NCBI RefSeq assembly: GCF_014201115.1
Contig: NZ_JACHDO010000001.1
Coordinates: forward strand, 1,922,001-1,986,000
Length of the DNA: 64,000 bases
Direction of reading: 5' to 3'
Source: Nocardiopsis metallicus
Lineage (GTDB): Bacteria; Actinomycetota; Actinomycetes; Streptosporangiales; Streptosporangiaceae
Below are positions 7,202 to 28,653 of the stretch, in pieces. The notes below the pieces were generated by a model that saw nothing but the letters and a program-made list of their open reading frames with translations, was not told the origin of the DNA and searched no databases. Each line of letters begins with the position of its first letter. Position 1 is the first letter of the stretch. The position numbers and the translations under genes were made by a program.

Positions 7202-7222
7202 GCACAGGTGGGCACCGTCCGG

Positions 7223-8813: not shown

Positions 8814-9025
8814 GGGGAGCCGACCCCGCAGGCCTGGTGCGGGAGCGGTCGGGAGCTGTACGGCCGAGCGCGGGGCCGCCCCTCGCTGGGTGGCGCGGTC
8901 CCGCGTTGAACTCCCGTTTCTCCCGGTACGTGACGTAGCGCACTCTGTGTGCGCCAAGCCATTATTACCGGTCAGTCACCATTACATTGAGGTCGGCTCC
9001 GTCCGACAACACAAGGGAGAAGCAC

Positions 9026-9898: not shown

Positions 9899-10924
9899 TC
9901 AGAACCTGTCGGGGTGCAGGCCCTCGGCGATGTGCTCGACCGCGCCGATGTTGCCGAGGGTGCCGGGGAAGAGGTCTGAGGCGGGGACCGCGACCAGACG
10001 GTCCTCGGACACGGCGGCCACGTCGGGGAAGGTCTGGGCCAGGTAGTCGCGGGTGGCCTCCTCGTGGTCGGCGTCGTTGACCGAGAAGACGATGGCCTCG
10101 GGGTCGCGCGAGGTGACCTCCTCGGGGGTGATGGTGGCGGCGAAGAAGTCGCTGAACGCGGCCTCGTCCGGGTCGAAGACGTTGTCGCCTCCGGCGCGGG
10201 CGATGATGTCGTACTCGATCCCCCCGCCGATGGCCATCAGGGTGGCGCCCTCCACGTACAGCTGCGCGACGCTGGGGGCCTCGGCCCCCTCGATCGCCTC
10301 CTCGACGGCAGTGAGGCGGGACTGTCCCTCCTCGGTCATCTCGTCCGCCCGGTCGGGGAGGGCGAAGATCGTGCCGAGGTTCTCGATGTCGGTGAACAGG
10401 TCGTCGACCGTGCCCTGGCTCCTGCGCTCCGGGCAGCCGCCGGTGGCCACGTAGGCGTCGGCGCCGACCTCGGCGAGCTGTTCGATGCTGGCGAAGCCCT
10501 GTTCCGTGGTGAACTCGTAGGTGGTGGGCGAGTAGACGAAGTCGGGTTCGGCCTCCAGGAGCACCTCCCGGGTGGGCGGCGCGACGTCACTGAGTTCGGG
10601 GACGTCGGCGACCTCGGCCTGGACCTGCTCGGGGAGCGGGTGGGTGTCGGTCTGCGCCTGGCCGACGAGGCGGTCGGTGAGCCCGAGTTCGACCAGGAGT
10701 TCGGTCTGTGAGGGGCTCAGTCCGACCAGGCGGGTGGGTGCGGCCTCCAGGACCAGTTCCTCGCCGCAGTTCTCGACGGTGACCGGGTAGCCCTCGGCCG
10801 CGGCCGTGTCGGGCTCGTCGGGGGTCGACACGCCCGTCCCGCAGGCGCTCAGGCCGAACGCGGTGAGTCCGGCCAAGGAGATCGCGGCGGTCCGGAGCCG
10901 GTTCGGAGTGCGGTCGACGGTCAT
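9899..10924 (-). CDS. Metallophore ABC transporter substrate-binding lipoprotein
   Basis: 341 residues. A basic N-terminus and hydrophobic segment end in the lipobox LSAC, so the mature protein is anchored to the outer face of the membrane. The body is a FecB/BtuF-type binding protein: APTRLVGLSPSQTELLVELG, then VADVPELSDVAPPTREVLLEAEPDFVY, then the C-terminal lobe. Its ATG overlaps the ATPase stop by 4 bp. It is the last gene of a permease-ATPase-receptor operon preceded by a Zur-like box rather than an iron box, so the ligand may be a zinc-metallophore complex; a ferric siderophore or cobalamin remains possible. Confidence 0.88.
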   Translation of the reverse strand: MTVDRTPNRLRTAAISLAGLTAFGLSACGTGVSTPDEPDTAAAEGYPVTVENCGEELVLEAAPTRLVGLSPSQTELLVELGLTDRLVGQAQTDTHPLPEQVQAEVADVPELSDVAPPTREVLLEAEPDFVYSPTTYEFTTEQGFASIEQLAEVGADAYVATGGCPERRSQGTVDDLFTDIENLGTIFALPDRADEMTEEGQSRLTAVEEAIEGAEAPSVAQLYVEGATLMAIGGGIEYDIIARAGGDNVFDPDEAAFSDFFAATITPEEVTSRDPEAIVFSVNDADHEEATRDYLAQTFPDVAAVSEDRLVAVPASDLFPGTLGNIGAVEHIAEGLHPDRF

Positions 10925-11736
10925 GAGTGGTGTCCCTTCGTGGTGACGGCGGCGGGCTCGGGTTCGGCCCGGACCACGCCGTTGAGGAGGATGTGCGAGC
11001 GTTCCCGCTCGGGGTTGCGGACGATGGCGGCCTCCACGCGGAAGCGTTCGCGCAGGACCTGGGCGGTGAGGACCTCGTCGGGGGTGCCGGTCCGGTCGAT
11101 GCGGCCGTCGGCGACCAGGGCGACGCGGTCGCAGTGGCCCAGGGCCAGGTCGAGGTCGTGCAGGGCGATGAGGGTGGTCAGCCCCGTCTCCCGGATGAGG
11201 TCCATGAGTTCGAGGCGGTGGGCGATGTCCAGGTGGTTGGTCGGCTCGTCCAGCACCAGGACCCGGGCCTGCTGGGTGATCGCGCGGGCCAGCAGGACGC
11301 GTTGGCGCTCTCCGCCGGACAGTTCGCCGATCTGCCGGTGGGCGAGGTCGCGCACACCGACGCGGTCCATGGCCCGGGCGGCGATCCGGCGGTCCTGCGC
11401 GGTGTCCAGTGAGAAACCGCGGTGGTGCGGGGTTCGCCCCAGGAGCACGGCCTGGGAGACGGTCATGCCGAACTCGTCGTTGGTCTCCTGGGCGACGACG
11501 GCGACCCGGCGGGCGGACTCACGGGGGCTCAGCCGCCACACGTCGTCGCCGTCGAGGAGGATTCTCCCGGCACTGGGGCGCAGGACGCGGTAGACGGCGC
11601 GCAGCAGGGTGGACTTGCCGCTGCCGTTGGTACCCAGCAGGCCGAGCACGGTGCCGGAGGGCACGTCCAGGGACACCCCGGCCACGATGGTGCGCTGTCC
11701 CCGGGCCACGGAGACGTCGTCGAAGGAGACTCTCAT
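10921..11736 (-). CDS. Metallophore ABC transporter ATP-binding protein
   Basis: 271 residues of the FecE/BtuD type. Walker A is LLGTNGSGKST, the signature is LSGGERQRVLLARA, Walker B is VLVLDEPTNHLD, and the switch region is LIALHDLDLA. It overlaps the permease (upstream) and the lipoprotein (downstream) by 4 bp each, so all three are one coupled transcription and translation unit. It energises uptake from the cytoplasmic side. Confidence 0.92.
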   Translation of the reverse strand: MRVSFDDVSVARGQRTIVAGVSLDVPSGTVLGLLGTNGSGKSTLLRAVYRVLRPSAGRILLDGDDVWRLSPRESARRVAVVAQETNDEFGMTVSQAVLLGRTPHHRGFSLDTAQDRRIAARAMDRVGVRDLAHRQIGELSGGERQRVLLARAITQQARVLVLDEPTNHLDIAHRLELMDLIRETGLTTLIALHDLDLALGHCDRVALVADGRIDRTGTPDEVLTAQVLRERFRVEAAIVRNPERERSHILLNGVVRAEPEPAAVTTKGHHS

Positions 11737-12839
11737 CGGTCCATCCCGGCTTTGGAGGCGCCGTCACGGCGCATGATCCACAGGAAGAAGGGGGCGCCGA
11801 CCACGGCGGTGAGGATCCCGATGGGGATCTCGGTGGGCGCGGCGACCGTACGGGCCAGCAGGTCGGCTGCGGCCAGGAAGAACGCCCCGCCGAGCACGCT
11901 CACCGGCAGCATGATCCGGTGGTCGCTGCCGACGGTGATCCGGGCGATGTGCGGGATGATCAGCCCGACGAACCCGATGCTGCCGCTGACCGAGACGACG
12001 GCGCCGACGAGCAGGGCCGAGACCAGCAGCAGGACGGTGCGCAGCCGGTCGACCTGGATACCCAGGGCCGTGGCGGCCTCGTCGCCGATCAGGACGGCGT
12101 TGATACCCCGGATGTTGAAGGCCACGACCACCAGCGCGAACAGCAGAGCCAGGGCGGGCACCAACAGCGATCCCATGGTGGCCGCGGAGACCGAACCCAG
12201 GAGGAAGAACATGACGCTGAAGACGTTCTGCGCCTCCGTGGTCAGGGTCAGGTAGCTGGTCACCGCGCTGAACAGGGAACCGAGGGCGACCCCGGCCAGG
12301 ATCAGCCGTTGGGGCGCGATGCGCCCGTTCTTGCGGGCCAGGAGGTAGACGGCCGCGGTCGCCACGGCGGCTCCCACGAAGGCCGCCGACGACAGGGAGA
12401 GCCCGCCCACCGCTCCCCCGGCACCGACGACGACCAGGACGGCGCCGACCCCGGCTCCGGAGGAGACACCCAGCACGTAGGGCTCGGCGAGCGGGTTGTG
12501 CACCACGGCCTGCATGAGCCCGCCGGCCAGGGCGAGGCAGGCCCCGGTGATGGCGGCGAGCAGGACGCGTGGCAGCCGGAACCGCCAGACCGCTTGGTCC
12601 TGGAGGGCGGTGTAGGTCCCGTCGGTCATCCAGGGCATGCCCGGGACCAGGTGTCCGAGGATCAGCTTGGCCGCGTCGAGGGTTCCGACGTGGACCGATC
12701 CGGTGCCCGCGGAGACCAGGACGACCAGGAGCAGGCCGAGGGTGAGGGCGATGACGACGAGGGCGTTGGAACGTGTTCTGCGCCGTCGTGGGAGGTCGGT
12801 CCGTTCGGCGGCGGGGGCGCTTTGAGCACTGACGCTCAT
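11733..12839 (-). CDS. Metallophore ABC transporter permease (FecCD family)
   Basis: About 368 residues with roughly ten hydrophobic helices. FecCD-family landmarks are LPRVLLAAITGACLALAGGLMQ, NPLAEPYVLGVSSGAGVGAV and the coupling-loop region near GFVGLIIPHIAR. The ATG at 12839 follows AGGAAG and is chosen over the extension to 12872, which would run into the Zur-like box. A single permease gene implies a homodimeric channel. It is the first gene of the operon; the box at 12873-12887 sits at its promoter. Confidence 0.9.
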   Translation of the reverse strand: MSVSAQSAPAAERTDLPRRRRTRSNALVVIALTLGLLLVVLVSAGTGSVHVGTLDAAKLILGHLVPGMPWMTDGTYTALQDQAVWRFRLPRVLLAAITGACLALAGGLMQAVVHNPLAEPYVLGVSSGAGVGAVLVVVGAGGAVGGLSLSSAAFVGAAVATAAVYLLARKNGRIAPQRLILAGVALGSLFSAVTSYLTLTTEAQNVFSVMFFLLGSVSAATMGSLLVPALALLFALVVVAFNIRGINAVLIGDEAATALGIQVDRLRTVLLLVSALLVGAVVSVSGSIGFVGLIIPHIARITVGSDHRIMLPVSVLGGAFFLAAADLLARTVAAPTEIPIGILTAVVGAPFFLWIMRRDGASKAGMDR

Positions 12840-12872
12840 GCTGTGGGTTCTTCCTGACCGGAGGGGTGACAA

Positions 12873-12887
12873 TGAAAACTATTATCA
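12873..12887. promoter_or_regulatory. Zur-like operator upstream of the ABC uptake operon
   Basis: TGAAAACTATTATCA is an imperfect palindrome with TGA/TCA outer arms, resembling the TGAAAATNATTTTCA Zur box known in actinobacteria. It differs at one base (the central position) from the box at 16813-16827. The flanks are AT-rich (AA before, TTA after), against a very GC-rich background. Regulation by Zur is inferred; a Fur-like iron regulator cannot be excluded. Confidence 0.6.
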
Positions 12888-12982
12888 TTACTGGACCATG
12901 AGCGCGAATCGGAAACTACCGGACACCCCCGGGGCCGCCCCGGACTCCACAACCCCCGCGGGGCGAAACCGCAGTGCAGAGG

Positions 12983-13012
12983 TTGATATGCAAGAATTCA
13001 CTTGCCTATAGT
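12983..13012 (+). promoter_or_regulatory. Promoter and palindromic operator of the ArsR-like gene
   Basis: TTGATA (12983-12988) and TATAGT (13007-13012) are each one base from consensus, with an 18-bp spacer. The spacer holds an inverted repeat GCAAG-6-CTTGC (12990-13005), well placed for autorepression by the ArsR-type protein. The GTG start at 13019 is only 6 bp after the -10 element, so the mRNA is probably leaderless. Confidence 0.6.
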
Positions 13013-13018
13013 GGTGCC

Positions 13019-13312
13019 GTGTCCGACCCACTGTTCAAAGCCCTGGCCGACCCGACCCGCCGCAGGATCCTCGACGAGCTCAGCGAGCGCTCCGGGCAGA
13101 CGCTGTTCGAACTCTGCGCGCGGCTGGTCTCCCGGCACCAGCTCGCGATGTCGCGCCAGGCGATCTCCCAGCACCTGGCCGTCCTGGAGGAGGCCGGCCT
13201 GGTCAGGAGCAGGCGCGAGGGGCGCTACAAGTTCCACGACATGGACCCGGAGCCGCTACGGCACATCACCGAGCGGTGGCTCCGACCCGAACCGGAAGAG
13301 AGCGGCTCATGA
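13019..13312 (+). CDS. ArsR-family transcriptional regulator
   Basis: A 97-residue winged-helix repressor. It begins LFKALADPTRRRILDELSER and has the recognition helix region MSRQAISQHLAVLEEAGLV and the wing RSRREGRYKFHDMDPEPL. No cysteine cluster for metal sensing stands out, so it probably belongs to the metal-independent ArsR type often paired with VOC or SRPBCC genes. GTG 13019 lies 6 bp downstream of a strong -10 element (leaderless). Its stop overlaps the ATG of the VOC gene. A degenerate second copy of this gene pair lies at 40071-40621. Confidence 0.85.
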   Translation: MSDPLFKALADPTRRRILDELSERSGQTLFELCARLVSRHQLAMSRQAISQHLAVLEEAGLVRSRREGRYKFHDMDPEPLRHITERWLRPEPEESGS

Positions 13313-13707
13313 GAATCCACATCAACAGCGTCTTCGTGGACAGCCAGGTCAAGGCCCTGGACTTCTACACGAACGTGCTGGGCTTCGAGAAGAAGCACGA
13401 CGTGCCCCTGGGCGGCCCCGAGGGCGAGAACCGGTGGCTGACCGTGGTCTCCCCGGAGAACCCGCAGGGAGCCGAACTCCTCCTGGAGCCCGCGGGCCAC
13501 CCCGCGGTGGGCCCCTACCGGGAGGCCCTGGCCAACGACGGCATCCCGGCCACCCAGTTCGCCGTGGACGACGTGCGCGCCGAGTACGAGCGGCTGCGCG
13601 CGCTGGGGGTCGAGTTCACCCAGGAGCCGCTGGAGGCGGGCCCGGTCACCACCGCGGTACTGGACGACACCTGCGGCAACCTGATCCAGATCGTGCAGGG
13701 CCCGTAG
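13309..13707 (+). CDS. VOC-family protein co-transcribed with ArsR
   Basis: 132 residues with the glyoxalase/bleomycin-resistance fold: INSVFVDSQVKALDFYTNVL at the N-terminus and TTAVLDDTCGNLIQIV at the C-terminus. The ATG overlaps the regulator stop by 4 bp (ATGA). The ArsR-VOC arrangement is common in actinobacteria and usually autoregulated, but the metabolite is not known. It lies between the two Zur-box operons without sharing their box, so it need not belong to the metallophore system. Confidence 0.83.
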   Translation: MRIHINSVFVDSQVKALDFYTNVLGFEKKHDVPLGGPEGENRWLTVVSPENPQGAELLLEPAGHPAVGPYREALANDGIPATQFAVDDVRAEYERLRALGVEFTQEPLEAGPVTTAVLDDTCGNLIQIVQGP

Positions 13708-13821
13708 GCCCCCTGCCCAGGCGCGGCGGCCGCGGGGCGTCGAGAACCGGTCCGCGTTCGCCGCCCGCCGCCCGTGCTCGTGCCGGGCGCCCTCTCGTGG
13801 CGTGCGCCGCACGGACTCCCC

Positions 13822-15582
13822 CTACGCGGTCGCTGGAGCCCTCCCCTCGGGCCCGGTGGCCGCGGCGGCGAAACTGAGGACGGTGGCCCCGAGGCGGTGC
13901 AGGCTGTCGAGGTGGTTGCCGCCGTGACCGGTCTGCGGTGCGCGCCATACGGCGGCGCTGCCCCCGGCCCGGCGCAGCGCGTCGGCCACCGCCAGGGTGT
14001 CGTCGGCGGCCACCCGGGAGTCCTCCGCCAGGACGATGCCCAGGAAGCGGGGAAGCGGGGTGCCGGGGGTGAGCGCCCTGGCCCGGTGCAGCGGTGAGAT
14101 CCGGCGCAGGTGTTCGATCGCCTCGGGGGTGTCCGAGGCTCCGAACTCGCTGGCCCAGCGCTGCCCGAGCGGGTGGGCACCGAGATTGAGCAGGTCGAGC
14201 GGGGCCGCGGTGCTGACGACGCCAGCGCACAGGTCAGGAGCGCCCAGGGCGCAGCTGGTGACCAGGACGCCGCCGTGCGAGGCTCCTGCCAGGACGAGCA
14301 GGTCGGGTCGGGTGAGCCCGGCCTCAACGAGACCGCGCGCGATGGCGACGAGGTCCTCGATGCCGCGCTCCTTGGCGAGGCCGTGCCCGGCCCGCCGCCA
14401 GGCGGGACCGTGCTCGCCGCCTCCCCGCACCTGGGCGACGGCGTACCGGCCTCCGTTCTCGACCCACGCTGGCACGGTCGGCTCGAACACCGGCAGGCTC
14501 GGCACACCGAAGCCGCCGTAGCAGGTGAGGATCAGCGGTGCGGGCCCCTCGGCGCCGATCGGCGAGGTGACCAGGACGGGGACGCGCGAGCCGTCCCCGG
14601 CGGTGAAGACGTACCGTTCGGTGTGTGCCGGGTCGGTGCGCGCCGGGGACCGCGTGCGGGCGGTGGCGGTCGGGTCGGACAGCAGTTTCTCGACGGGTAC
14701 GACCCGCGGGGGCAGGACCGGGCCTTCGATGAGGGCGTGGAAGCGGCCCGCGTCGGCGCTCACCCCGGTAGCGACCGCCGGGGAGCCCCGGTAGGCGACC
14801 TCGCGTTCGGCCACCGCCGAACCCCGGACGAGCCGCACGAGGACGCTGCGGCCGGCGCGTACGCCGACGGCGACGACCTCCGATCCGCTGGCGGCGACGG
14901 AGGTGACCCGCACTTCCGGATCGTCCCAGCACCACTTCTGGGCACCACTGCCCGGGTCGATCCCCTGAAGGCCGCTGCCGTCGTCGACGACGACGTCCTC
15001 ACCCGCCCGCAGGACCCGGACGATGGCGGCGAACGCGGCGATCTCGGCACCGGTGTCCCGGTCGATCAGGCGGCTGGGGCTGCCGGGGCTGCTCTGGGCG
15101 AGCAGGCCGCGGCGCCCCCCGGGAAAGAGTCTGAGCCGGGCGTCCGGGGACACGTCCGAGGCCGTCGCCTCCCCGGTCCTCGCGTCGACGCGGACGAGGC
15201 GGTGGGAGCCGCCCGCCACCAGTGCGGCGCCAGAGGAGTCGGCGTCCCAGAGCACGGGGTCGTAGCGGCAGCGAAACTCCGGGTAGAGCCGCAGGGCTCC
15301 GGTCGCGGTGTCGACCAGCCCCAGCGCGGCGTCCTCGTCAGCGCGCTCGGCCAGTTGGACACAGATGCTTCGCCCGTCCGGGGAGGGATCCATGCGCAGG
15401 ATGTGCCCGTCGGGTTCGATCACCGGCGCCCCGGTGTCCGCCCGGTAGATCCCCCGGCGTCGGCGTCCGGTCGGTCGGCTGAGGGTGAACCCGTTCTCCG
15501 GCAGGCCGGGACGGCCGTGCCGTTCCCACTCGGTGAGCGCGTCGTCGAGGGCGGGGTCGAGAGGCGGAGGGGAGTCGTGCAT
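13822..15582 (-). CDS. Prolyl oligopeptidase family serine peptidase (S9) of the RiPP locus
   Basis: About 586 residues: an N-terminal beta-propeller region followed by an alpha/beta-hydrolase domain. The catalytic triad can be read as Ser435 in LAGASHGGV, Asp521 in LAEDSRVAADD and His553 in QTGHGGNHLD; ILTCYGGFG near residue 350 is the usual oxyanion region. The ATG at 15582 lies 2 bp after the stop of the beta-propeller-like gene, so they form a two-gene operon that diverges from the RiPP precursor across a shared Zur-like box. S9 peptidases cut after proline, and some (plant PCY1, fungal POPB) release and cyclise RiPP cores. The precursor here carries one Pro per repeat (ENPFD). A role in precursor maturation or metallophore breakdown is inferred. 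Confidence 0.82.
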   Translation of the reverse strand: MHDSPPPLDPALDDALTEWERHGRPGLPENGFTLSRPTGRRRRGIYRADTGAPVIEPDGHILRMDPSPDGRSICVQLAERADEDAALGLVDTATGALRLYPEFRCRYDPVLWDADSSGAALVAGGSHRLVRVDARTGEATASDVSPDARLRLFPGGRRGLLAQSSPGSPSRLIDRDTGAEIAAFAAIVRVLRAGEDVVVDDGSGLQGIDPGSGAQKWCWDDPEVRVTSVAASGSEVVAVGVRAGRSVLVRLVRGSAVAEREVAYRGSPAVATGVSADAGRFHALIEGPVLPPRVVPVEKLLSDPTATARTRSPARTDPAHTERYVFTAGDGSRVPVLVTSPIGAEGPAPLILTCYGGFGVPSLPVFEPTVPAWVENGGRYAVAQVRGGGEHGPAWRRAGHGLAKERGIEDLVAIARGLVEAGLTRPDLLVLAGASHGGVLVTSCALGAPDLCAGVVSTAAPLDLLNLGAHPLGQRWASEFGASDTPEAIEHLRRISPLHRARALTPGTPLPRFLGIVLAEDSRVAADDTLAVADALRRAGGSAAVWRAPQTGHGGNHLDSLHRLGATVLSFAAAATGPEGRAPATA

Positions 15583-15584
15583 CG

Positions 15585-16793
15585 CTACCGGCCGATGGTG
15601 TCGGTGTCGACGGCGCCGCCGTGCCAGTACAGGTGCCCGCCCTCGTCGAGCGGGCTGGGCACGCTGACGGTGTCGAGCCGTCCGTCGCGGAACAGGTGCA
15701 GCTGGCCGTCGCCTCCCCGGGTCACCGCGACGGTCGTCCCCGTGGGGTCGACGGCCAGGGAGCGCCGTTGCGCGGGCGCGTCGCCGACCGGGTCCCAGGG
15801 CAGGTGCCCGGGGACGGGCGGGCACGACATCGCAGGGAGCGCGATGGTGCGGGCGAGGCTCATCGAGGGCTCGGTCCGCTCGATGACGGCGAGCTCGTCC
15901 CCGTCCGGGTGGATGGTGGCTACAGCGGCCCGGGGGCCGCCGAGCGCGAAGCGGAAGGCCAGCCCCCGGGGAAGCTCCAGGTAGCGCGTCGCACCGGTGG
16001 ACAAGTCGACGTCGACCAGGTGGTTCGTCCACTCGGTCCATGCCGTCGGGGATGCGGGACCGCCTCGGACCACGCCCACCGCGCGGCCGGTCTGCGGGTC
16101 TAGGCGCAGGTAGTAGGCGCGCCCGGGCACGGGCCAGGCGACGGTGTCGAGCATGCGCGGGACACCGCCGTCGACGACGAAACGCTCCAGTCCCCTGCTG
16201 GTCGCGGTCGCCGCGATACCGGTGCGCTGGTCGACGACGTCGCCGTGTCCGTCGTCGGCGATACCGCGAAGGGTCTCACCGGTGATCCGGGGCACGTGCG
16301 CGGCGACGCCCAGGCACTGGGAGAGGGGGAACGCCTCCAGGGACCCGGGCTCCCTGTGGCGCAGCACGACCGCGGGCTCGCCGCCGGCCTGGTCGGGGAC
16401 GACCATGGCGCCGGGTTCTCCGACCCGGGAGCGGAACCGTACGGACTCGCTCCGCTCCAGGTCGACCAGGGTGACGACGTCGCTCCACGGCTGCTCGTTC
16501 GCGCCCAGTCCGGTCGTCACCACCACGTAGCGGCCCGAGGCGTCACAGGCGAGGTGTTCGCCGGGGATGGCCGCGGGGAAGCGGCGCTCCCCCCGGGTGC
16601 CCGAGACCACGAGCGCGCCGGAGCGGTCGTCGACGAAGGCCCACTCGCCGGGCCCCCGCTCCGTACCGGGCAGCGCCAGGAACCCGGCGTGCTCGGCGAG
16701 TACGGCGTTGCCGAGCTCTCTCACCGCGCCGTCCGCTACGGCGTAGGTGCGGCCCGCACGGTAGTCGGCCACGAGGAGGTTCTGGAAGTTCAT
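15585..16793 (-). CDS. Beta-propeller-like protein of unknown function in the RiPP locus
   Basis: 402 residues with no recognised catalytic motif. The sequence is a series of short beta-rich blocks (for example YVVVTTGLGANEQPWSDVV, FVVDGGVPRMLDTVAWPV and SLAVDPTGTTVAVTRGGDG). They resemble WD40- or S9-propeller blades, so it may be a stand-alone propeller related to the N-terminal half of the neighbouring peptidase. It has no signal peptide. It is the first gene of the minus-strand operon and starts 20 bp from the Zur-like box at 16813-16827. It may chaperone the precursor or gate the peptidase, but nothing in the sequence proves it. Confidence 0.65.
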   Translation of the reverse strand: MNFQNLLVADYRAGRTYAVADGAVRELGNAVLAEHAGFLALPGTERGPGEWAFVDDRSGALVVSGTRGERRFPAAIPGEHLACDASGRYVVVTTGLGANEQPWSDVVTLVDLERSESVRFRSRVGEPGAMVVPDQAGGEPAVVLRHREPGSLEAFPLSQCLGVAAHVPRITGETLRGIADDGHGDVVDQRTGIAATATSRGLERFVVDGGVPRMLDTVAWPVPGRAYYLRLDPQTGRAVGVVRGGPASPTAWTEWTNHLVDVDLSTGATRYLELPRGLAFRFALGGPRAAVATIHPDGDELAVIERTEPSMSLARTIALPAMSCPPVPGHLPWDPVGDAPAQRRSLAVDPTGTTVAVTRGGDGQLHLFRDGRLDTVSVPSPLDEGGHLYWHGGAVDTDTIGR

Positions 16794-16812
16794 TGCGCCA
16801 AGCTATTGGAAA

Positions 16813-16827
16813 TGAAAACCATTATCA
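16813..16827. promoter_or_regulatory. Zur-like operator in the RiPP divergon
   Basis: TGAAAACCATTATCA lies between the divergent beta-propeller gene and the precursor gene. It is identical to the box at 12873-12887 except for the central base. Its position, 20 bp before the minus-strand start and about 85 bp before the plus-strand start, lets one site control both directions. Confidence 0.6.
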
Positions 16828-16910
16828 AGTACAGTGAGCGCCGTTCGTCCCCCACGAACACGTATCGGCGCCTATGACCGATACGCCATGCATTGAGAAG
16901 GGAATGACCT

Positions 16911-17093
16911 ATGGACAACCAGATCGTCGCCGAGGTCGAAGAGACCGAGCAGCTCGCCCACCTGTCCGCCTCCCACTCCAACGCCCTCGTCGAGAACCCC
17001 TTCGACGTCGTCGCCGAGATCGAGGAGACCGAGCAGCTCGCCCACCTGTCCTCCACCCACTCCAACGCCCTCGTCGAGAACCCCTTCGACTGA
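16911..17093 (+). CDS. RiPP precursor peptide with two tandem core-like repeats
   Basis: A 60-residue acidic peptide: five N-terminal residues (MDNQI), then two units with a period of 28 residues. Each unit reads VAE(V/I)EETEQLAHLS, then (A/S)(S/T), then HSNALVENPFD; the second unit ends exactly at the stop. There is no cysteine; Ser/Thr residues cluster next to His (LSASHSN and LSSTHSN). AGAAGGGA precedes the ATG at a good distance. The gene lies directly after the Zur-like box and is followed by a strong hairpin, then by genes for an E1-like protein, YcaO and SagB-like enzyme. This is the arrangement of azol(in)e RiPP precursors, so Ser/Thr would be the modification sites. I recognise no known family for the repeat. 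Confidence 0.8.
   Translation: MDNQIVAEVEETEQLAHLSASHSNALVENPFDVVAEIEETEQLAHLSSTHSNALVENPFD
16926..17093 (+). repeat. 84-bp tandem duplication inside the precursor gene
   Basis: Unit 1 starts at 16926 and unit 2 at 17010. The 81-bp coding units differ at only a few bases, giving V/I, A/S and S/T changes, so the duplication is recent or under strong selection. The second unit runs directly into the stop codon. Confidence 0.9.
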
Positions 17094-17133
17094 CTCCCGT
17101 CCCCGCGACGTAGGACGTAGTCATTGAGAACCA

Positions 17134-17166
17134 CCCGGTCGGGCAGCCCCGCGCTGCCCGACCGGG
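17134..17166 (+). terminator. Hairpin between precursor and biosynthetic genes
   Basis: A perfect 13-bp stem (CCCGGTCGGGCAG with CTGCCCGACCGGG) and a 7-nt loop, followed by CCGTTT. It lies 40 bp after the precursor stop and 19 bp before the next gene. It probably acts as a partial terminator or mRNA-stabilising hairpin, keeping precursor mRNA in excess over enzyme mRNA. Confidence 0.75.
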
Positions 17167-17184
17167 CCGTTTGAGAGGTCGGCC

Positions 17185-18075
17185 ATGCCCCCAGAACCAT
17201 CCGTCTCCCCCGTGCCGGGAACCGGTGCGCACGCCATCATCGACAGCGCGGGCACCGGTGTCGTACGCACCTCCTCAGGGCGCTTCCTGCGCCTGGTGTC
17301 CCCGCCGGACGACCTCCTGGACGTTCTGGGCGGCGCTTCGGGCGCTGACGGGAGAACCGCCGCGTACGCCGAGGCACTGCGGGCGAAGGTGTCCGCACGC
17401 GAGGAAGAGGACGCACAGCACCGCTGGCCGGGTCCGCGACGCGAGGTCGCCCTGATCGGCACGGGCCCCCTCGTCGACGCGGTGGCTGAGGCCCTGACCG
17501 GCTGGGGTGCGGCCGTTACCCGCCACACCGACGGCGATGCCCTGCTCGCCTCGATCGACGGAGCGGCTGCCCCTGATCGACCGGCCCGCGGCGCGGTCGG
17601 CCGCCGCGGAGAAGGCACTCCACCGTGGGGGCTGATGATCGCGTACGCGGACTCCCACGCAGAGCGCCTCGGCTGGGACCGGCTCGACGCGCTGCCGGGC
17701 CAGGGCGTCGCCTGGCTGCGCGCCTACCGCGAGGGCGAGAACTGCTTCGTCGATCCCCTCTCCCTGAACGGGGACGACCCCGGTGCCGAGCAGGTGTACC
17801 GGCGGCGCCTCGCGGCGAGCTTCGTCCCCCGCGAACTCGACACCTGGCGGCGCGCGGCCATGGCCTCCACGCCCCCCTCGGCGGCCGCGCACACTCTGAT
17901 GACGGGCCGGCTGCTCACCCTGGCCCTCGCCTGGGCCCAGCGGGCGGACACGTTGGAGGGCTACCGCCGCACGCTGTGGAAGTTCGTCCCCGCCACCGGC
18001 ACGATCAGCGAGCATCCCGTCCTGGCCTACGACCCGCCACCCTCCATCGACCCGGACGCGCGTCGGCGGGTATGA
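17185..18075 (+). CDS. E1-like (ocin-ThiF) precursor-binding partner of YcaO
   Basis: 296 residues. The N-terminal part (VVRTSSGRFLRLVSPPDDLLDVL) resembles the leader-peptide-clasp region of azoline cyclodehydratase partner proteins. The middle VALIGTGPLVDAVAEALTGWG is a Rossmann-like ThiF/E1 strand-loop-helix. The later GVAWLRAYREGENCFVDPL matches the conserved block these proteins use. No zinc-binding cysteine tetrad is seen. It would bind the precursor and present it to YcaO. GAGAGG precedes the ATG; the stop overlaps the hydrolase start (ATGA). The TOMM partner role is inferred from these blocks plus the adjacent YcaO and SagB-like genes. Confidence 0.7.
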   Translation: MPPEPSVSPVPGTGAHAIIDSAGTGVVRTSSGRFLRLVSPPDDLLDVLGGASGADGRTAAYAEALRAKVSAREEEDAQHRWPGPRREVALIGTGPLVDAVAEALTGWGAAVTRHTDGDALLASIDGAAAPDRPARGAVGRRGEGTPPWGLMIAYADSHAERLGWDRLDALPGQGVAWLRAYREGENCFVDPLSLNGDDPGAEQVYRRRLAASFVPRELDTWRRAAMASTPPSAAAHTLMTGRLLTLALAWAQRADTLEGYRRTLWKFVPATGTISEHPVLAYDPPPSIDPDARRRV

Positions 18076-19070
18076 CCGTGGAACCCGGACGCGAACACCT
18101 GTGCCAGGGCGGGGACGGCGCAGTACTGCGCGGGCGCGTGTGGGAATGCGCGAACCCGGCGGGCCTCGTGGTGATCCGCACCCCCTACGACGCGGACCAG
18201 CACGCGGGGACGGCACGCTCATGGAACGCCCGTGGCTACCACTGCCTCGTCCAGGACGTGCGCGGACGGTACCGGTCAACGGGAGCGTGGGCCCCCTACT
18301 CCCATGAGGAGGACGACGGCGGCCGGGTACTCGCCCGACTGACCGAGGAATACGAAGGGCTGCCGCTGGTCCTCTTCGGTGCCTCGTACGCCGCCCACGC
18401 CGCTCTGGAAGCCGCTCGGGCCGTGACGGGTGACCACGCGCCCACGGTCGCGGCGATCATCGTCCTCGTCCCCGCTCTCGGGCTGGCCGAGACCGCGTGG
18501 GACCACGAGGGCGCCCCGCAGATCCTGCACCGGATCGGATGGTGGCACGAACACGGGCGCCACCGGCGCTCCCAGCCCCCGCTGTCAGCGGCCGAGCTCG
18601 ACCGGCGCGTCGCACAGGCGCGCGGCCGGGGCGTGGTCGAGGCCGCCCGGGACTGGGGCTGGTCGCCAGCGACGTTGGCCGGCTGGCGGCGGCTGTGGAG
18701 CGCTGAGCGAGTGGACCTGGCGTCGCGCTACGGCCGCGTCGACGCGCCGCTCCTGGTGGTCAGCGGCGATGACGACTTCTTCGACCATGACGCCCGGCGA
18801 CTCGCGCGCGAATGGGGCGCCCCGAGCCACTTCGCCAGCGGCCCGTGGGGACACGGTCTGGTCGGCGGCGTCGCCGACCGGGCCCTGCGGGCACGTATCT
18901 CGGCCGCGGGCGGACTGGCCCACATCATCGATCCGTGGCTTGCGGCCCAAGGTCTGCCGGGCTCACCAGCGGAGTGGACCGGGATCCTCACGGCCGCCTC
19001 CACTTCCCGTACCCGGTCGACCCTCGATTCCGCGTCAGAGGCCTGGCGCCACGAAAGGACCTCACCTTGA
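18072..19070 (+). CDS. Alpha/beta hydrolase (S15/CocE-like) of the RiPP locus
   Basis: 332 residues. GLVVIRTPYDADQHAGTARSW and VQDVRGRYRSTGAWAPYSHE are typical of the X-Pro dipeptidyl-peptidase/CocE group. The nucleophile elbow is LFGASYAAH (GxSxxA), the acid is likely in LVVSGDDDFFD, and the histidine in SGPWGHGL. It overlaps the E1-like gene and the YcaO gene by 4 bp each. A second candidate protease/esterase within the pathway suggests multi-step trimming or release of the peptide; X-Pro specificity would again fit the NPFD motif of the precursor. Peptidase versus esterase activity cannot be decided by eye. Confidence 0.75.
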   Translation: MTVEPGREHLCQGGDGAVLRGRVWECANPAGLVVIRTPYDADQHAGTARSWNARGYHCLVQDVRGRYRSTGAWAPYSHEEDDGGRVLARLTEEYEGLPLVLFGASYAAHAALEAARAVTGDHAPTVAAIIVLVPALGLAETAWDHEGAPQILHRIGWWHEHGRHRRSQPPLSAAELDRRVAQARGRGVVEAARDWGWSPATLAGWRRLWSAERVDLASRYGRVDAPLLVVSGDDDFFDHDARRLAREWGAPSHFASGPWGHGLVGGVADRALRARISAAGGLAHIIDPWLAAQGLPGSPAEWTGILTAASTSRTRSTLDSASEAWRHERTSP

Positions 19071-20497
19071 GCACCACCACAACGGGGCGGCACCGCCCGA
19101 GTGCCACCGAGACCGCTACGGCAGGAACCGATCACCCCCTGCCCGTGGAGGCGCTCGTCGACCCCGAATGCGGAATCATCCGCTCCGTGCGGGCCGTGAA
19201 GCATCCCCCCGGCGCTCCCGCCTCCTACACGGGGCTGACGGCGGCCGTCGCCGACGCCCGGCAGCTCGGCGAGTGGCCGGCCGACCGCGTCTCGCTGGGC
19301 ACGACGTTCGGTGACGTCGAGCAGGCCCGGATCGCCGCGATCGCCGAAGGGGTCGAGCGCTACTGCGGGAACTGGCTCCCCGCCGACCTCCCCCACGACG
19401 AACTGCGCATCGGAACCCGCGCGGAACTGCTGGCCGCGGGCCGTCGACCGATCGCCCTGGACGACCTGCCCCGGTGCGCTCCGTGGCAGTACGGCCGCGA
19501 CGGGTTCCCCTACCAGCCCCTCACCGAGGACACCCCCACCCTCTGGACGCGCTGCGGCGAGCGCGACGGCTCCGAGGTGTGGATGCCGGCCTCGCTGGTC
19601 TACCTCAACTGGCGGCAGTCACGCTTTCGCCACCTGCCGCGCGTGCACCACCTGAACTACGCCGGGATCGCCACCGGGCAGGGGGCCGACGACGCGAGGG
19701 ACCGCGGGGTCATGGAGGTCATCGAACGCGACGCCCTCGAACTGTGGTGGCATCTGGACGGGCCCACCTTCGGGATCGACCCCGCCAGCGTTCCCGGGCT
19801 CGCCGACGACCTGCGCGGCAGCTCCCTGGAGGTGTCCCTCGCGGTCATGCCCTCGGAGTTCGCCCCGGCCGTGGCCGCGCTCGTGCACGACGGGGAACGC
19901 GGCCTGTACGCGGCGGGGTTCTCCGCCGCACTCGACCCGGTCAGGGCCGCCCGCAAGGCCGTGCTCGAAGCCGTCCACACCTGGGTCTACACCCAGGGCT
20001 GCACCACCGCCGACGGGTGGGTCTTCCGCGCCGTCGAACAGGGCCTGATGGCCCGCGGCCTCTACCTCGACTTCCGTGCCGACACCAACTACCTCGACGC
20101 CGCCGGCGCCCAGTTCGAGCACGTCGTCGACCTGGGCGCGCACGTCCAGGTCTGGCTCGACCCCCGAGTCCACGGCGAGGCCCGGCGCTTCACCGCACCC
20201 GCCCTGGGCGTCCGGCCCATCAGCGAGGTCGCGCCCGTGTCGATGGACGAGGTCTACCAGCGGCTGGACGCTCGCGGGCACCGCGTCATCACCCGTGACC
20301 TGACGACGAGCGACGTGCGCCGCACGTCGCTGCGCGTGGTGCGCAGCTTCGTCACCGGGCTCGTCCCCAACGCTCCCGCGGCCTTCGCCTACCTCGGCAT
20401 GCCGCGTTTGGAGGAGGCGGCCCTCGAACGGGGGTGGCGCACCTCGTGGGACGGGAGCCCCGGGGACCTCACCCTCGTCCCGCCGCCGCACATGTGA
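19067..20497 (+). CDS. YcaO-domain cyclodehydratase of the RiPP locus
   Basis: 476 residues. YcaO landmarks are RVSLGTTFGDVEQARIAAIA followed by EGVERYCGNW (ATP/Mg-binding glutamates), then GIATGQGADDARDRGVMEVI and ERDALELWW, and a late AALDPVRAARKAVLEAVHTW. The C-terminus is proline-rich (LVPPPHM), like the PxPxP tail of azoline-forming YcaOs, but imperfect. It would activate backbone amides with ATP to turn Ser/Thr into oxazolines. The start is a TTG at 19067 overlapping the hydrolase stop (TTGA) with AAAGGA upstream; the open frame further upstream lies inside the hydrolase gene. Confidence 0.88.
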   Translation: MSTTTTGRHRPSATETATAGTDHPLPVEALVDPECGIIRSVRAVKHPPGAPASYTGLTAAVADARQLGEWPADRVSLGTTFGDVEQARIAAIAEGVERYCGNWLPADLPHDELRIGTRAELLAAGRRPIALDDLPRCAPWQYGRDGFPYQPLTEDTPTLWTRCGERDGSEVWMPASLVYLNWRQSRFRHLPRVHHLNYAGIATGQGADDARDRGVMEVIERDALELWWHLDGPTFGIDPASVPGLADDLRGSSLEVSLAVMPSEFAPAVAALVHDGERGLYAAGFSAALDPVRAARKAVLEAVHTWVYTQGCTTADGWVFRAVEQGLMARGLYLDFRADTNYLDAAGAQFEHVVDLGAHVQVWLDPRVHGEARRFTAPALGVRPISEVAPVSMDEVYQRLDARGHRVITRDLTTSDVRRTSLRVVRSFVTGLVPNAPAAFAYLGMPRLEEAALERGWRTSWDGSPGDLTLVPPPHM

Positions 20498-20507
20498 GGC
20501 CGTACCC

Positions 20508-21602
20508 ATGCCCCTTTCCTTCCCGCAGGGCCCCGCCCCCTACGATGCGGAACCGGGCCCGGCGGGGCCCTCGCCCCTGCCACCCGCCCTGGCGCGCGCC
20601 TTCTCCGCCCAGGTTCCGGGCCCGCCCGTGCCTCCCGGACCGCGTGCCAACCCCTGGCACCGGGCCGGAGCCGACCCGGTGGCGGTACCGGAGCGCGAAC
20701 GCGCCCTGCTCGACGGCCTGTGGCTCAGCAGGGGGCACCACCGCCTGGCCGACGGGACGGCGACCCGTGTGCCCAGGCGACCGGTGCCCTCCGCGGGGGC
20801 GGCCTACCCCGTGCACACCCACCTGGTCGTCGGCGCGGACGGCCCCCTGGAGGCGGGCCGGTACGCCTTCGACATGGAGAAGGGCGTACTGCTGCGGCGC
20901 GACGCGGCCCGCGAACGGGACGCGGGTTGGGACGCCCCCGGTAGCGGTACCGCCGTGCGGGGGACCCACCTGGTCCTGACGGTGCAGCCGGGTCGCAGCT
21001 TCGGCCGGTACCGCCACCGGGCCTGGCCGCTGTGGATCGCGGACACCGCCTACGCCCTGGCCGCGGTGGAGTTCCTGTGCGCCCCGGGCCCCGCCGCGGT
21101 CCACCTGGGCCCCGGGCCGTGGCTGCGCGAGCTGCTCGGCGTGCCGCGCGCCTGCGAGCACGGCCGGTGGCTCGCACGCGGACTCGCACCCGAGATCGCG
21201 CTGGCCGCCGTCGAACTTCCCGGGACCTGGTCGGTCCCGGCAGATCGCCGCGACGCCCTGGCCGCGAGGCGTTCCCCGGCGATCGGCGAGTTCGAGGCCG
21301 CTGAGCGCAACCGCGACCCGCGGTCCGCGCGGGCCGCGAAGGAGTCCGGGCAGGCCTGGGTACTCGGAGCCCACCGACTGAAGACCTGGTCCGTGGCGGT
21401 GGGCACACCCGCCGCCGCACTCGCCCCGGCCCTGTGGCGGGCCCACCGGCAGGCGGCCGGGCTGTGCTACGCCGGCGCCCTGTCCCAGCGGTGGCGCTGC
21501 CGCCCGGTGTCGGGGTTCACCGCCGCGCGCGGCCGCTGGACCGTCCACGCCCTGGCGATGCTCCCCGGCGCACACCATCTCGACAAGGAGTCAGCCGCAT
21601 GA
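20508..21602 (+). CDS. SagB-like nitroreductase-fold oxidoreductase (azoline dehydrogenase)
   Basis: 364 residues. RPVPSAGAAYPVHTHLVVG matches the conserved SAGxxYP block of SagB-type FMN dehydrogenases, and YRHRAWPLWIADTAYALAAV corresponds to the later flavin-contact helix. The catalytic Lys-Tyr pair cannot be assigned confidently. In azole RiPP pathways this enzyme oxidises azolines to aromatic azoles. It is 10 bp downstream of YcaO and its stop overlaps the first exporter (ATGA). Its presence supports oxazole or methyloxazole formation from the precursor's Ser/Thr residues. Confidence 0.72.
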   Translation: MPLSFPQGPAPYDAEPGPAGPSPLPPALARAFSAQVPGPPVPPGPRANPWHRAGADPVAVPERERALLDGLWLSRGHHRLADGTATRVPRRPVPSAGAAYPVHTHLVVGADGPLEAGRYAFDMEKGVLLRRDAARERDAGWDAPGSGTAVRGTHLVLTVQPGRSFGRYRHRAWPLWIADTAYALAAVEFLCAPGPAAVHLGPGPWLRELLGVPRACEHGRWLARGLAPEIALAAVELPGTWSVPADRRDALAARRSPAIGEFEAAERNRDPRSARAAKESGQAWVLGAHRLKTWSVAVGTPAAALAPALWRAHRQAAGLCYAGALSQRWRCRPVSGFTAARGRWTVHALAMLPGAHHLDKESAA

Positions 21603-23272
21603 TGATCGTCCCCCTGCTGTGGCGGGAGGCGACCCGATTCCCCGCTGCCCTGACCCGGAGCGTGGCCCTGCTCGTCCTCGTCTTCCTCACCCACGTCGGA
21701 CAGGCCGTGGCGATCGCCTGGTCGATGTCGGCCGTCCTGCACGGCCAGGCCCGGGAAGTACTCCTGGCGCTGTCGCTGATCCTCGGGATCGCACTGCTGC
21801 GCCTGGTGCTCTCCCTGGCGCAGGCGTGGGCCGCAGCGTCCCTGGGCGGCCTGGTCAAGCAGGCGGTGCGCCGCCGTGCGATGGAGGCCGCGCTCGTGCC
21901 CGAGCGGCTGCACGACACGGGCGCCCGGGACGGCTCGATGCGGGCCAGCCTCGGTGACGGCGTCGACGGGATCGACGCCTACGTCTCCAAGTACGTTCCA
22001 GCGATCGTGCAGCTGCTCCTCACCTGCCCCGTCGTCGTGGTCGCCCTGCTGTGGCTCTCACCCTGGGCCGGCCTGTTCGTGGCCGCCGGGGTGGTGTTCG
22101 CCCTGGTGGGCCCGCTGGCCTGGAAACGGATGATGGCCCGGCGCGGACTCGACCACTGGGACAGCTACGAGGCGCTCAGCGCCGACCTGCTCGAATCCCT
22201 GCGCGGTATGGCCACCCTGCGCGCACTCGGCGACGTGTCCGGCACCCGGGCGCGGCTGGACCGCCGCTCGGAGGCGCTGCGCAGGGCCACCGAACGCGTG
22301 ATGCGCGGCTCCCTGGGCGAGACGTCGGTTACCGACGCCGCCGTCCAGGGGGGCGTGGTCGCCGCGGCCGCCGTCGCGATCACCCACGCGGTCACCGGGC
22401 AGGCCCCGGCGCTGGAGGTCTACCTGATCCTGTTGCTCTCCTCCGAGGCGTTCCGCCCCGTCCGGGACCTGTCCCGGCACTGGCACGCCGGGTTCCTCGG
22501 CCTGACCGCGATCCCCGGCCTGAAAAGGATCGGGGCCTTCACCGAACCGGGTGGCGCCGAGGCCGAGCGCCCCGCCGGCCCCGCCGCTCCCGGCCCCGGG
22601 GATGCTCAGTCCGGCGAGGTACGGTCGGCGGACGAACTACGGGTGAGGGGCCTGAGCTTCGGCTACCCCGACGCCGCGGGCGACGTCATCCACGACCTCG
22701 ACCTGACCGCCCGGCGGGGCTCGCTCACCGCGATCGTCGGAGAGTCCGGAGCCGGTAAGTCCACCCTCTTCGACCTCCTCCTGGGTTTCCTCACCCCGCG
22801 TACCGGAAGCATCGAACTCGACGGGCGGCCGCTGCGCGCCCGCGACATCGCCGTGGTCTCCCAGCGGCCCGTGCTCTTCGCCGGGACCATCCGCGACAAC
22901 CTCGCGGTCACCGGCGCCACCGCGGAAGCGGACCTCGTCCGGGCCTGCCGCGACGCGGGCATCCTCGACGAGATCCAGCGCTTCCCGCGCGGCTTCGACA
23001 CCGAGGTCACCGAAGCCGGGACCAGCCTCTCCGGCGGCCAGCGCCAACGCCTGGCCCTGGCCCGCGCGCTGCTGGCACGGCGCCCGGTCCTGCTGGTGGA
23101 CGAGCCGACGAGCGCGTTGGACGCCGACCGCTCAGCGGATGTCGTGCACACCCTGCACCGCGTGGCGCGCGACCGCGTCGTCCTCATGATCAGCCACCGC
23201 ACCGAGACGCTCACCGAGGTTCCCGCCGTGTTCAGCCTCGACTCCGGACACCTGCACAGGAGCACCTTGTGA
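21599..23272 (+). CDS. ABC exporter, fused membrane/ATPase subunit 1
   Basis: 557 residues: an N-terminal ABC_membrane region of about six helices and a C-terminal ATPase with Walker A GESGAGKST, signature LSGGQRQRLALARA, Walker B VLLVDEPTSALD and an H-loop SHRTE. It overlaps the SagB-like gene upstream and subunit 2 downstream by 4 bp. It pairs with the next gene as a heterodimeric (CydDC-like) exporter, most likely of the mature RiPP. There is no C39 peptidase domain, so leader removal must be done by another enzyme. Confidence 0.88.
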   Translation: MMIVPLLWREATRFPAALTRSVALLVLVFLTHVGQAVAIAWSMSAVLHGQAREVLLALSLILGIALLRLVLSLAQAWAAASLGGLVKQAVRRRAMEAALVPERLHDTGARDGSMRASLGDGVDGIDAYVSKYVPAIVQLLLTCPVVVVALLWLSPWAGLFVAAGVVFALVGPLAWKRMMARRGLDHWDSYEALSADLLESLRGMATLRALGDVSGTRARLDRRSEALRRATERVMRGSLGETSVTDAAVQGGVVAAAAVAITHAVTGQAPALEVYLILLLSSEAFRPVRDLSRHWHAGFLGLTAIPGLKRIGAFTEPGGAEAERPAGPAAPGPGDAQSGEVRSADELRVRGLSFGYPDAAGDVIHDLDLTARRGSLTAIVGESGAGKSTLFDLLLGFLTPRTGSIELDGRPLRARDIAVVSQRPVLFAGTIRDNLAVTGATAEADLVRACRDAGILDEIQRFPRGFDTEVTEAGTSLSGGQRQRLALARALLARRPVLLVDEPTSALDADRSADVVHTLHRVARDRVVLMISHRTETLTEVPAVFSLDSGHLHRSTL

Positions 23273-24948
23273 ACACCCTTTCCGCGTTCCGGGCCTTCCG
23301 TGAACTGCTGCCCGTCCTGCGCCCGCAGTGGCGGGGGATGGTCTGGAGCTACCTGCTGGGCACCCTGAGCGCGCTCGCCCTGGCCGCTCTGACCGTGCTC
23401 ACCGCGTGGGCGGTCGGCCACGCCGTGGTGGAGCGCACACCGCCCGGCCCCGTGTGGTGGGCCCTGGTCCTGGGGCTCGTGGTGCTGCGCGTGCTCCTGA
23501 CCTGGCGGGAGATGGACGTCTCGCACGCCCTGGCCTACCGTGTGCTGGCCCGGCTGCGGATGGCGCTGTTCGACGCCTACGCGCGCAGTGTCCCCGGTCG
23601 GCGCCGGGAGCACTCCGGGCGCGCCGCGTCCGTCGCGATGGACGACATAGAAAAGCTCGAGTTCTTCTACGCCCACACCCTCGCTCAGCTCGGCGCCTCG
23701 CTCACCCTGTTCGCCGCGTCCCTGGCCACCGCGTCCCTGCTGCTGCCCGAAGCCGCACTGGTCATGCTCCTGGGCTCCGCCCTCGTGGCGAGCAGCGCAC
23801 TGTACTGGGCGCGGACCGCCCGGCGGCTGGGTGAGCGGGAGCAGCGGGAGCGCTCCGACCTGTCCGCGCACATCGTGGACGCGCTGGGCGCACTCCGCGA
23901 GGTACTCGCCTACGGACTCGCGCCCCGCACCATCGCCCAGACCAACGACGCCACCGCCCGCGCCACCGCCCTCGCGCGACGGCGCGAACTGCTGTCACAG
24001 CTGGTCACCAGCCTACGGGAACTCATCCTCACCGGCGTGGTCATCGGCGTCATCGCCACCAGCGCCGCCGCGGCGGGCGTGCTCTCCGCGGGCGCCCCGG
24101 TTCGGCTGGCGCCCGCGGAACTGCCCGCGCTGGTCGCCCTGGCCCTGGTCGGCATCGCCGCGGTCGTGGACGCCACCGACACACTCACCCGGCTCCATCC
24201 GCTCGTCTCCGGCGCCGAACGCGTCGCCGCCGGCATCAACCGTCCCCCGGTCGTCGCCCTGCCCCAGGCTCCGAGGCAGCTGCCCGACGGGCCGCTGGGC
24301 CTGCGGTTCCGGGACGTGTCCTTCTCCTACGAGGGCCGACGGCCAACGCTCACGTCCTGGTCCGCCGAACTCGCCCCGGGCGAGCACGTCGGTCTGGTCG
24401 GCCCCTCCGGTTCGGGCAAGAGCACCCTCATCGCCCTGGCCGCCCGCCTCTGGGATCCTTCCGCGGGCGCCGTCGAGCTCATCACGGCCGACGGCGAGGG
24501 CGTACCCGTCGCCGAACTGGACGACGGGGCGCTGCGGGGTGCGGTGGCCCTGGTCGACCAGGACGCCGTGCTCTTCCACGGCACCGTCCGCGACAACCTG
24601 CTGCGCGGCTGCGGACCGCGCTCCGACAGTGAACTGACCGCCCTGCTCGAACGCGTCGAAGCCACCACCTGGATCGGTCTCGACGACGAACTCGGAGAGG
24701 CGGGGGTGCGGTTGTCCGGCGGACAGCGGGCACGCCTGTGCCTGGCCCGCGCCCTCGCCCGCCGACCGCGCGTCCTCCTCGTGGACGAGGTGACCGCCAG
24801 CCTCGACCCGGCCACCGAACGACTGGTCTCCGACGTCATCGCCGAATTCCAGGGCACCGTCCTCATCGCGTCCCACCGAGCCGAGACCCTGGCCCGCCTC
24901 GAACGCGTCGTCGAGGTGGCCGCGACCCCGCAGGCCGCCCGGGGGTGA
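23269..24948 (+). CDS. ABC exporter, fused membrane/ATPase subunit 2
   Basis: 559 residues with the same layout: helices in the first 320 residues, Walker A GPSGSGKST, signature RLSGGQRARLCLARA, Walker B VLLVDEVTASLD (Val instead of Pro after Glu) and a SHRAE H-loop. The GTG start overlaps subunit 1. It ends the RiPP operon; about 1 kb without a convincing gene separates it from ramC. Confidence 0.88.
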   Translation: MNTLSAFRAFRELLPVLRPQWRGMVWSYLLGTLSALALAALTVLTAWAVGHAVVERTPPGPVWWALVLGLVVLRVLLTWREMDVSHALAYRVLARLRMALFDAYARSVPGRRREHSGRAASVAMDDIEKLEFFYAHTLAQLGASLTLFAASLATASLLLPEAALVMLLGSALVASSALYWARTARRLGEREQRERSDLSAHIVDALGALREVLAYGLAPRTIAQTNDATARATALARRRELLSQLVTSLRELILTGVVIGVIATSAAAAGVLSAGAPVRLAPAELPALVALALVGIAAVVDATDTLTRLHPLVSGAERVAAGINRPPVVALPQAPRQLPDGPLGLRFRDVSFSYEGRRPTLTSWSAELAPGEHVGLVGPSGSGKSTLIALAARLWDPSAGAVELITADGEGVPVAELDDGALRGAVALVDQDAVLFHGTVRDNLLRGCGPRSDSELTALLERVEATTWIGLDDELGEAGVRLSGGQRARLCLARALARRPRVLLVDEVTASLDPATERLVSDVIAEFQGTVLIASHRAETLARLERVVEVAATPQAARG

Positions 24949-28618: not shown

Positions 28619-28653
28619 CGGAGAAGCGAATTCCGATCGAAAGGATAACAGCT

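Follow-up and report, generated by a model that had tools for sequence, protein, structure and literature searches.

Why should genes for a modified peptide and genes for a metallophore-type importer stand behind almost the same regulatory box? This question is raised by a 64,000-nucleotide stretch of the Nocardiopsis metallicus genome (contig NZ_JACHDO010000001.1, positions 1,922,001 to 1,986,000; referred to below as the window), which carries a YcaO-containing cluster for a ribosomally synthesised and post-translationally modified peptide (RiPP) and a FecBCD-type importer. The original prediction for this DNA was a zinc-controlled ribosomal metallophore. Our reading, to which we assign a probability of roughly 0.6, is that the streptamidine-family RiPP cluster of the window is a member of the Zur (zinc-shortage) regulon, its most likely role being zinc acquisition. 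This view is carried by findings from sequence comparison, namely the identity of the cluster, the boxes themselves, their recurrence in relatives and the way in which the box follows the importer.

The precursor matches the NCBIfam family NF040714 (‘streptamidine family RiPP’) with 117.5 bits at a cut-off of 40. By this profile match the window cluster is a streptamidine-family RiPP cluster, and the earlier statement that no such RiPP had been described does not hold. Streptamidine-type clusters have been reported in more than 230 species, the product itself deriving from the core HLSATH in Streptomyces albidoflavus J1074 (main text of PMC8442711). The window shares with that cluster the precursor family, amiB to amiE, two exporter halves and fec-type genes, of which the published cluster has four, amiF1-F4; unlike it, the window has two precursor repeats, a gene for an S9 peptidase and a three-gene importer with its own box. 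The window cores, HLSASH and HLSSTH, each differ by one residue from HLSATH. All 78 precursors that we compared have cores of the form H-x-S-A-[ST]-H (HDSASH, HLSASH, HLSATH, HASASH, HASATH, HHSATH); HLSSTH is the core of repeat two in the window precursor. If the products are analogous to streptamidine, with one dehydration each, the computed [M+H]+ values are 633.310 and 663.321. The features of the window are listed below; counts out of 81 refer to the window plus 80 ami loci, which are the best 80 of 158 YcaO-related stretches.

9899..10924, minus strand: FecB-type substrate-binding protein, AmiF-like (PF01497, 69.9 bits)
10921..11736, minus strand: importer ATP-binding cassette (ABC) ATPase (PF00005, 119.6 bits)
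11733..12842, minus strand: FecCD-type permease (PF01032, 300.6 bits; ATG at 12842 is the chosen start)
12873..12887, no strand: Zur-type box in front of the importer operon (30 bases to the permease ATG; matrix score 25.1)
13019..13312, plus strand: ArsR-type regulator, between the importer and the S9 gene (family assigned by eye from the translation)
13309..13707, plus strand: VOC protein, between the importer and the S9 gene (family assigned by eye from the translation)
13822..15582, minus strand: S9 peptidase (PF00326, 97.7 bits)
15585..16793, minus strand: amiX-type conserved protein (homologue in 73 of 81 loci)
16813..16827, no strand: Zur-type box common to the divergent amiX and amiA operons (matrix score 28.1)
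16911..17093, plus strand: precursor AmiA, 60 amino acids, two repeats with cores HLSASH and HLSSTH (NF040714, two stretches)
17185..18075, plus strand: AmiB-like protein, by analogy the partner of YcaO (80 of 81 loci have a homologue)
18072..19070, plus strand: AmiC, S15/CocE-type hydrolase (PF02129, 63.1 bits)
19067..20497, plus strand: AmiD, YcaO protein (PF02624, 137.7 bits; TTG at 19067 is the chosen start)
20508..21602, plus strand: AmiE, distant SagB-like protein (TIGR03605, 25.5 bits, cut-off 78.4; no Pfam match)
21599..23272, plus strand: AmiT1, CydDC-like ABC exporter half (TIGR02857, 318.6 bits, cut-off 435)
23269..24948, plus strand: AmiT2, CydDC-like ABC exporter half (TIGR02868, 251 bits, cut-off 329)

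Profiles and translations bear out the genes that had been predicted here, with some labels standing only in part. The label ‘E1-like’ agrees with a Phyre2 match of AmiB to an E1-like/RRE region (PMC8442711, main text), whereas the window protein has no match in Pfam or NCBIfam. The SagB-like oxidoreductase does find TIGR03605, though weakly, and the two-subunit exporter does consist of two CydDC-like halves, both of which score below their cut-offs. Among solved structures, the FecB-type protein is most closely related to periplasmic binding proteins, 4mlz for example. The open reading frame at 15585..16793, originally labelled a propeller, found no family in Pfam or NCBIfam profile searches; we call it amiX by position, because it is 40-44% identical to the gene that adjoins the importer box in Streptomyces loci. 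That amiX might encode an AztD-type zinc metallochaperone was considered because an AztD gene exists in the same genome, but found no support: there was no NF038015 match, a profile comparison gave 3.5% probability, and the best E-value in a sequence search of solved structures was 0.011. The ArsR and VOC genes are probably not part of the ami system. Homologues of amiB-amiE, amiT1/T2 and the fec-type importer genes occur in the same order in relatives, AmiE with and AmiB without a weak family match. Among the best 80 of the 158 stretches, the closest named relatives of the YcaO protein are mostly Nocardiopsis, with 83-87% identity in the best segment. The same order, FecBCD-S9-amiX / amiA-B-C-D-E-T1-T2, is found on the Rhodococcus rhodochrous plasmid pNit (NZ_CP032676.1), where the precursor homologue is annotated amiA; in this locus a box precedes the AmiA match by 94 bp, the precursor has a single repeat, and the importer is contiguous with the S9 gene.

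The two boxes, TGAAAACTATTATCA at 12873-12887 and TGAAAACCATTATCA at 16813-16827, differ by one base, as had been noted at the outset, and neither was matched in 100 dinucleotide shuffles. They lie upstream of the genes, about 20 bases from the amiX start, 30 from the permease ATG and 83 from amiA, and such closeness to the starts suits a repressor. A scan for consensus promoters found nothing at the boxes. Two published motifs, tGaNNatSatNNtCa from S. coelicolor and the actinobacterial znuA motif taaTGaNAANNNTTNtCANta (both as given in PMC5472717), fit both boxes, the former except for a single base where conservation is weak.

When the pattern TGAWAAYSRTTWTCA was searched in the genome itself with at most one mismatch, nine places were found, two of which are the ami boxes; the backward-read control gave one. 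Judged by the Pfam families of their neighbours, the other places lie between a cobW gene and a Fur-family gene (L003, with L009 close by), upstream of genes for L33 and L31 whose products lack cysteine (L007), upstream of znuA (L010), upstream of a FecCD permease gene (L004) and between ArsR and MFS genes (L006); L005 is a further site. Among solved structures, the Fur-family protein at L003 (PF01475) is closest to 3mwm and 7vo0 (‘putative metal uptake regulation protein’), both of which we take to be the Zur protein of S. coelicolor, followed by 2o03 (‘probable zinc uptake regulation protein FurB’). Because the same box stands upstream of L31/L33, znuA and zur-cobW in this genome, and because the Fur-family protein there resembles zinc regulators, the window box is very probably a Zur box, as originally predicted, and we strongly infer zinc control of the cluster. 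The genome also carries AztC- and AztD-type zinc acquisition genes at about 2.12 Mb (L140, 14065-18406; NF040870, NF038015), and such alternative routes for zinc import could hide an ami phenotype. Around the Zur-boxed importer at 2.09 Mb, no zincophore genes of the non-ribosomal peptide synthetase (NRPS) type were noticed in a by-eye look at the long open reading frames of 52 kb.

Other genomes give the same picture of what the box accompanies. Marinactinospora has six exact matches, including those at ami, L33/L31 and cobW; the others are at an ABC ATPase gene (with a ZnuB-like permease adjoining, by eye), at an NRPS gene and at a cobW/ZIP-looking site (by eye only). The same exact pattern gave 11 sites in 10 genomes and none in the backward control. 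A second set comprised 11 genomes, nine reached through ami loci (eight of them already in the first set) and two with an AmiA-related family. Here TGANAAYSRTTNTCA gave 20 sites: nine at ami, five at znuA, two at cobW, one at FecCD, two at SBP_bac_5-type genes (one of them judged by eye) and one beside S8 peptidase and TetR genes; its backward control gave one palindromic site. As side observations, SBP_bac_5-type binding-protein genes stand beside a Zur-type box in L093 and L133 (both by eye) and in L132 (by Pfam), three genomes to which ami loci of Streptomyces and Microtetraspora had led, and the Marinactinospora NRPS gene (L100; condensation and carrier domains) follows directly after its exact box, making it a candidate non-ribosomal zincophore cluster.

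To score the ami loci we used a matrix built from ten non-ami sites of the own genome, Marinactinospora and Streptomonospora, which themselves score 24.6-28.8 (neighbours of eight checked with hidden Markov models, of two by eye). At scores of at least 14, the 80 loci contained 183 matches in 1.61 Mb, compared with none in the letter-reversed loci, overlapping matches being counted separately; 78 of the 80 loci had at least one. After L017, L048 and L091, which have no amiA match in the fetched piece, had been dropped, 76 of 77 loci had a box within 200 bp upstream of amiA, its first base lying 75-116 bp ahead of the AmiA match. The corresponding figure for control windows from the same loci, which may include genuine second boxes, was 41 of 3608. 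Going by record titles, the 76 boxed loci span 13 genera, and the lone miss is a Jiangella locus (L025) with a score of 10.5. In eight Streptomyces loci with the exact core HLSATH (L061, L070, L073, L082, L085, L086, L088, L090), the amiA-proximal box scores 24.3 in each case. A motif search that made no use of Zur as a prior, in 14 loci with one per genus, drew its 15 best 15-mers from two stretches, the amiX start and a palindrome near -90 (TGAGAATCATTTTCA and similar); they scored higher than five shuffled nulls.

A family-seeded sample, which overlaps in species with the YcaO-seeded one, gave a match in 29 of 297 genomes of the own order including the own genome, hence 28 other loci. With L171 dropped because no core was found, the box was present in 27 of 27, and in 30 of 31 when four loci from a phylum-wide sample were added, L108 failing. 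L170 (G747) and L171 (G790) have streptamidine-family matches below the cut-off; the amiA of L170 looks decayed, with one internal stop, and its upstream box still scores 29.4. Iron control was rejected, the IdeR/DmdR consensus giving one weak site in the 80 loci and none within 300 bp upstream of amiA.

Genes for export and for import are both present in the window, as a zincophore system would require, but compared with close relatives the window has an exchanged importer. A minus-strand permease at least 50% identical to that of the window is found in 28 of the 80 loci. In 21 of these the importer is contiguous, following amiX and S9 at no more than 278 bp from the S9 match, and none of the 21 has an importer box of its own; such importers can be read from the amiX-side box. 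In the other seven the importer is found at the opposite flank of the cluster, each time with its own box. Among the remaining 52 loci, the 48 with amiX all carry a box in the 200 bp preceding that gene, and 47 of them have an importer, which, like the Streptomyces importers in general, is only distantly related to that of the window (permease identity 30-36%); L039 is on a short contig. In the window, where ArsR and VOC genes split the importer from the S9 gene, the importer again has its own box. The box is common to RiPP genes and importer both here and in relatives.

Closer examination of a sister genome of the same genus (G950, L173) revealed an identical precursor and the same ArsR-VOC pair, for which no such match was found in L174-L184. 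In the same place (5079-8836) this genome has a different FecBCD importer, 38/48/56% identical, with a weaker box (17.9). Since the importer differs between close relatives, the occupant of this position was exchanged while the zinc switch was kept. We read this pattern as selection for importing something along with the RiPP in zinc shortage. In the permease tree, L012, labelled Glycomyces fuscus, places its ami locus among Nocardiopsis, which indicates a mislabelled genome or a recent transfer.

Several findings weigh against our reading. The boxed loci are not independent, as 52 of the 77 amiA loci come from one genus, Streptomyces. Of the 77 amiA-proximal boxes only 17 satisfy the strict published motif TGANAANNNTTNTCA, and of the 52 from Streptomyces just 2, compared with 21 of 3608 control windows; most Streptomyces loci combine a degenerate box near amiA with a near-consensus one between amiX and the importer. 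The window importer is not an ortholog of the relatives’ importers by permease sequence, orthology being ruled out by identities of 65-71% with relatives compared with 85-93% among L012, L013, L018, L019 and L174; its exchange warns that it may not be dedicated to the ami peptide. In the AmiA-related family NF040715, which we found in 4 of 299 genomes of one family and in none of 396 genomes of the phylum-wide sample, the core-like stretch VLSAPQGPGT lacks His, and this speaks against zinc binding by His alone as a common principle. In favour of our reading, the box is nevertheless present at 4 of 4 NF040715 loci (scores 19.4-20.0), and FecBCD homologues in the 3 of 3 that were read further. 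Finally, zinc binding by the product is unproven, with one published negative: purified streptamidine showed no detected binding to Fe, Co, Cu, Mg, Mn, Ni or Zn(II) ions, and the delta-amiD strain had no metal-starvation phenotype, according to the main text of PMC8442711. The Zur box points to zinc-starved strains without other zinc importers as the place for a phenotype.

These findings bear on the strongest competing explanation, in which the cluster is Zur-induced without being a metallophore, the peptide being a signal or antagonist and the importer a co-regulated recycling, immunity or sensing device. Such a role would agree with the absence of metal binding and of a metal phenotype (PMC8442711, main text), with the core His not being kept in the AmiA-related family and with the exchange of the importer between close relatives. 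Against it stand the lack of antibacterial and antifungal activity in the same source and the retention of a Zur-controlled importer through three different arrangements; we regard this role as a serious, though less probable, contender. Far less likely is that Zur acts as an activator at high zinc and the exported peptide removes a surplus. S. coelicolor Zur does activate zitB, an exporter gene, through a box that lies upstream of the -35 element (PMC5472717, as far as described there), and the cluster encodes an exporter; but the importer is under the same control, and with only some 20-30 bases between the boxes and the starts of amiX and the permease gene, a bound regulator should prevent transcription. 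We consider it equally remote, or slightly more so, that a Fur-family regulator other than Zur, for a different metal, recognises the boxes: the readout in this genome comes from sequence and some boxes are degenerate, chiefly the amiA-proximal ones in Streptomyces, yet in these genomes znuA, cobW, L31/L33 and zur genes also stand behind such boxes. The original idea that Ser and Thr become oxazol(in)es which bind zinc with His, Glu and Asp, in whose favour stand the YcaO and distant SagB-like genes and the oxazoline-containing shunt products proposed for an amiE mutant, is as good as discarded by the published structure of streptamidine, with unmodified Ser and Thr and a six-membered amidine ring from the His1 amine to the Leu2 carbonyl (PMC8442711, main text), and by the position of the window precursor’s Glu and Asp outside the cores.

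Under our reading of the cluster as a zinc acquisition system, zinc-loaded Zur would, when zinc is sufficient, sit on the two boxes and block the amiX-S9 genes, amiA to amiT2 and FecBCD; zinc starvation would derepress all of them, and AmiA would be made. AmiD with AmiB would then activate the core backbone, AmiC would release the N-terminal His so that the six-membered amidine closes, AmiT1/T2 would export the product, and FecBCD would re-import it, possibly loaded with zinc. The S9 peptidase and AmiX might help to release or recycle the peptide. Zur binding and repression, zinc as the ligand, re-import and these last roles are what we infer; that an amidine forms and that amiB-E and amiF1-F4 are required is taken from S. 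albidoflavus, where the product was lost on deletion of amiB, amiC, amiD, amiE or amiF1-F4 and reduced without amiT1-T2 (PMC8442711, main text). Streptamidine also needs the dehydrogenase gene although it is not oxidised, as the same text describes.

We tentatively go one step further, to a proposal that we ourselves think doubtful: the streptamidine family may be ribosomal zincophores whose real ligand is larger than, or other than, the hexapeptide, and streptamidine may be the remnant left after FecBCD has re-imported the zinc-loaded peptide and the cell has cut it. As a breakdown product formed after re-import, streptamidine might well require the importer genes and the dehydrogenase, and its lack of zinc binding would be explained. 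If the product does carry zinc, it would be, to our knowledge, the first RiPP zincophore.

Methanobactin is likewise a RiPP for metal acquisition, but its metal is copper and its maturation enzymes are different, while ethylenediamine-disuccinate, unlike the window product, is not a peptide. The genes for the latter in Amycolatopsis japonicum are metabolite genes found through Zur sites (cited in PMC12161575), and the putative zincophore coelibactin of S. coelicolor is Zur-controlled but a non-ribosomal peptide (PMC3430247, PMC12161575, PMC5472717, in the parts that treat it). For streptamidine, the idea of a metal is previously in print, without regulatory evidence: its authors proposed metal import from the fec-like genes in 2021, and a term search of the main text of PMC8442711 found ‘Zur’ nowhere and ‘zinc’ once. 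In the open-access literature we found no paper that links Zur to streptamidine or reports a RiPP zincophore, which is a limited negative. A Zur box conserved across many genera names a condition under which streptamidine-type clusters should be switched on.

Lastly, a ram/amf-like cluster lies directly 3' of the ami cluster (window 25961-30692; assigned partly by eye). Following the exporter, this region contains a class III lanthipeptide synthetase LanKC (NF038151, 1121 bits), an open reading frame at 28654-28779 that by eye resembles a SapB/AmfS-type precursor, and an ABC transporter, also by eye, at 28917-30692.

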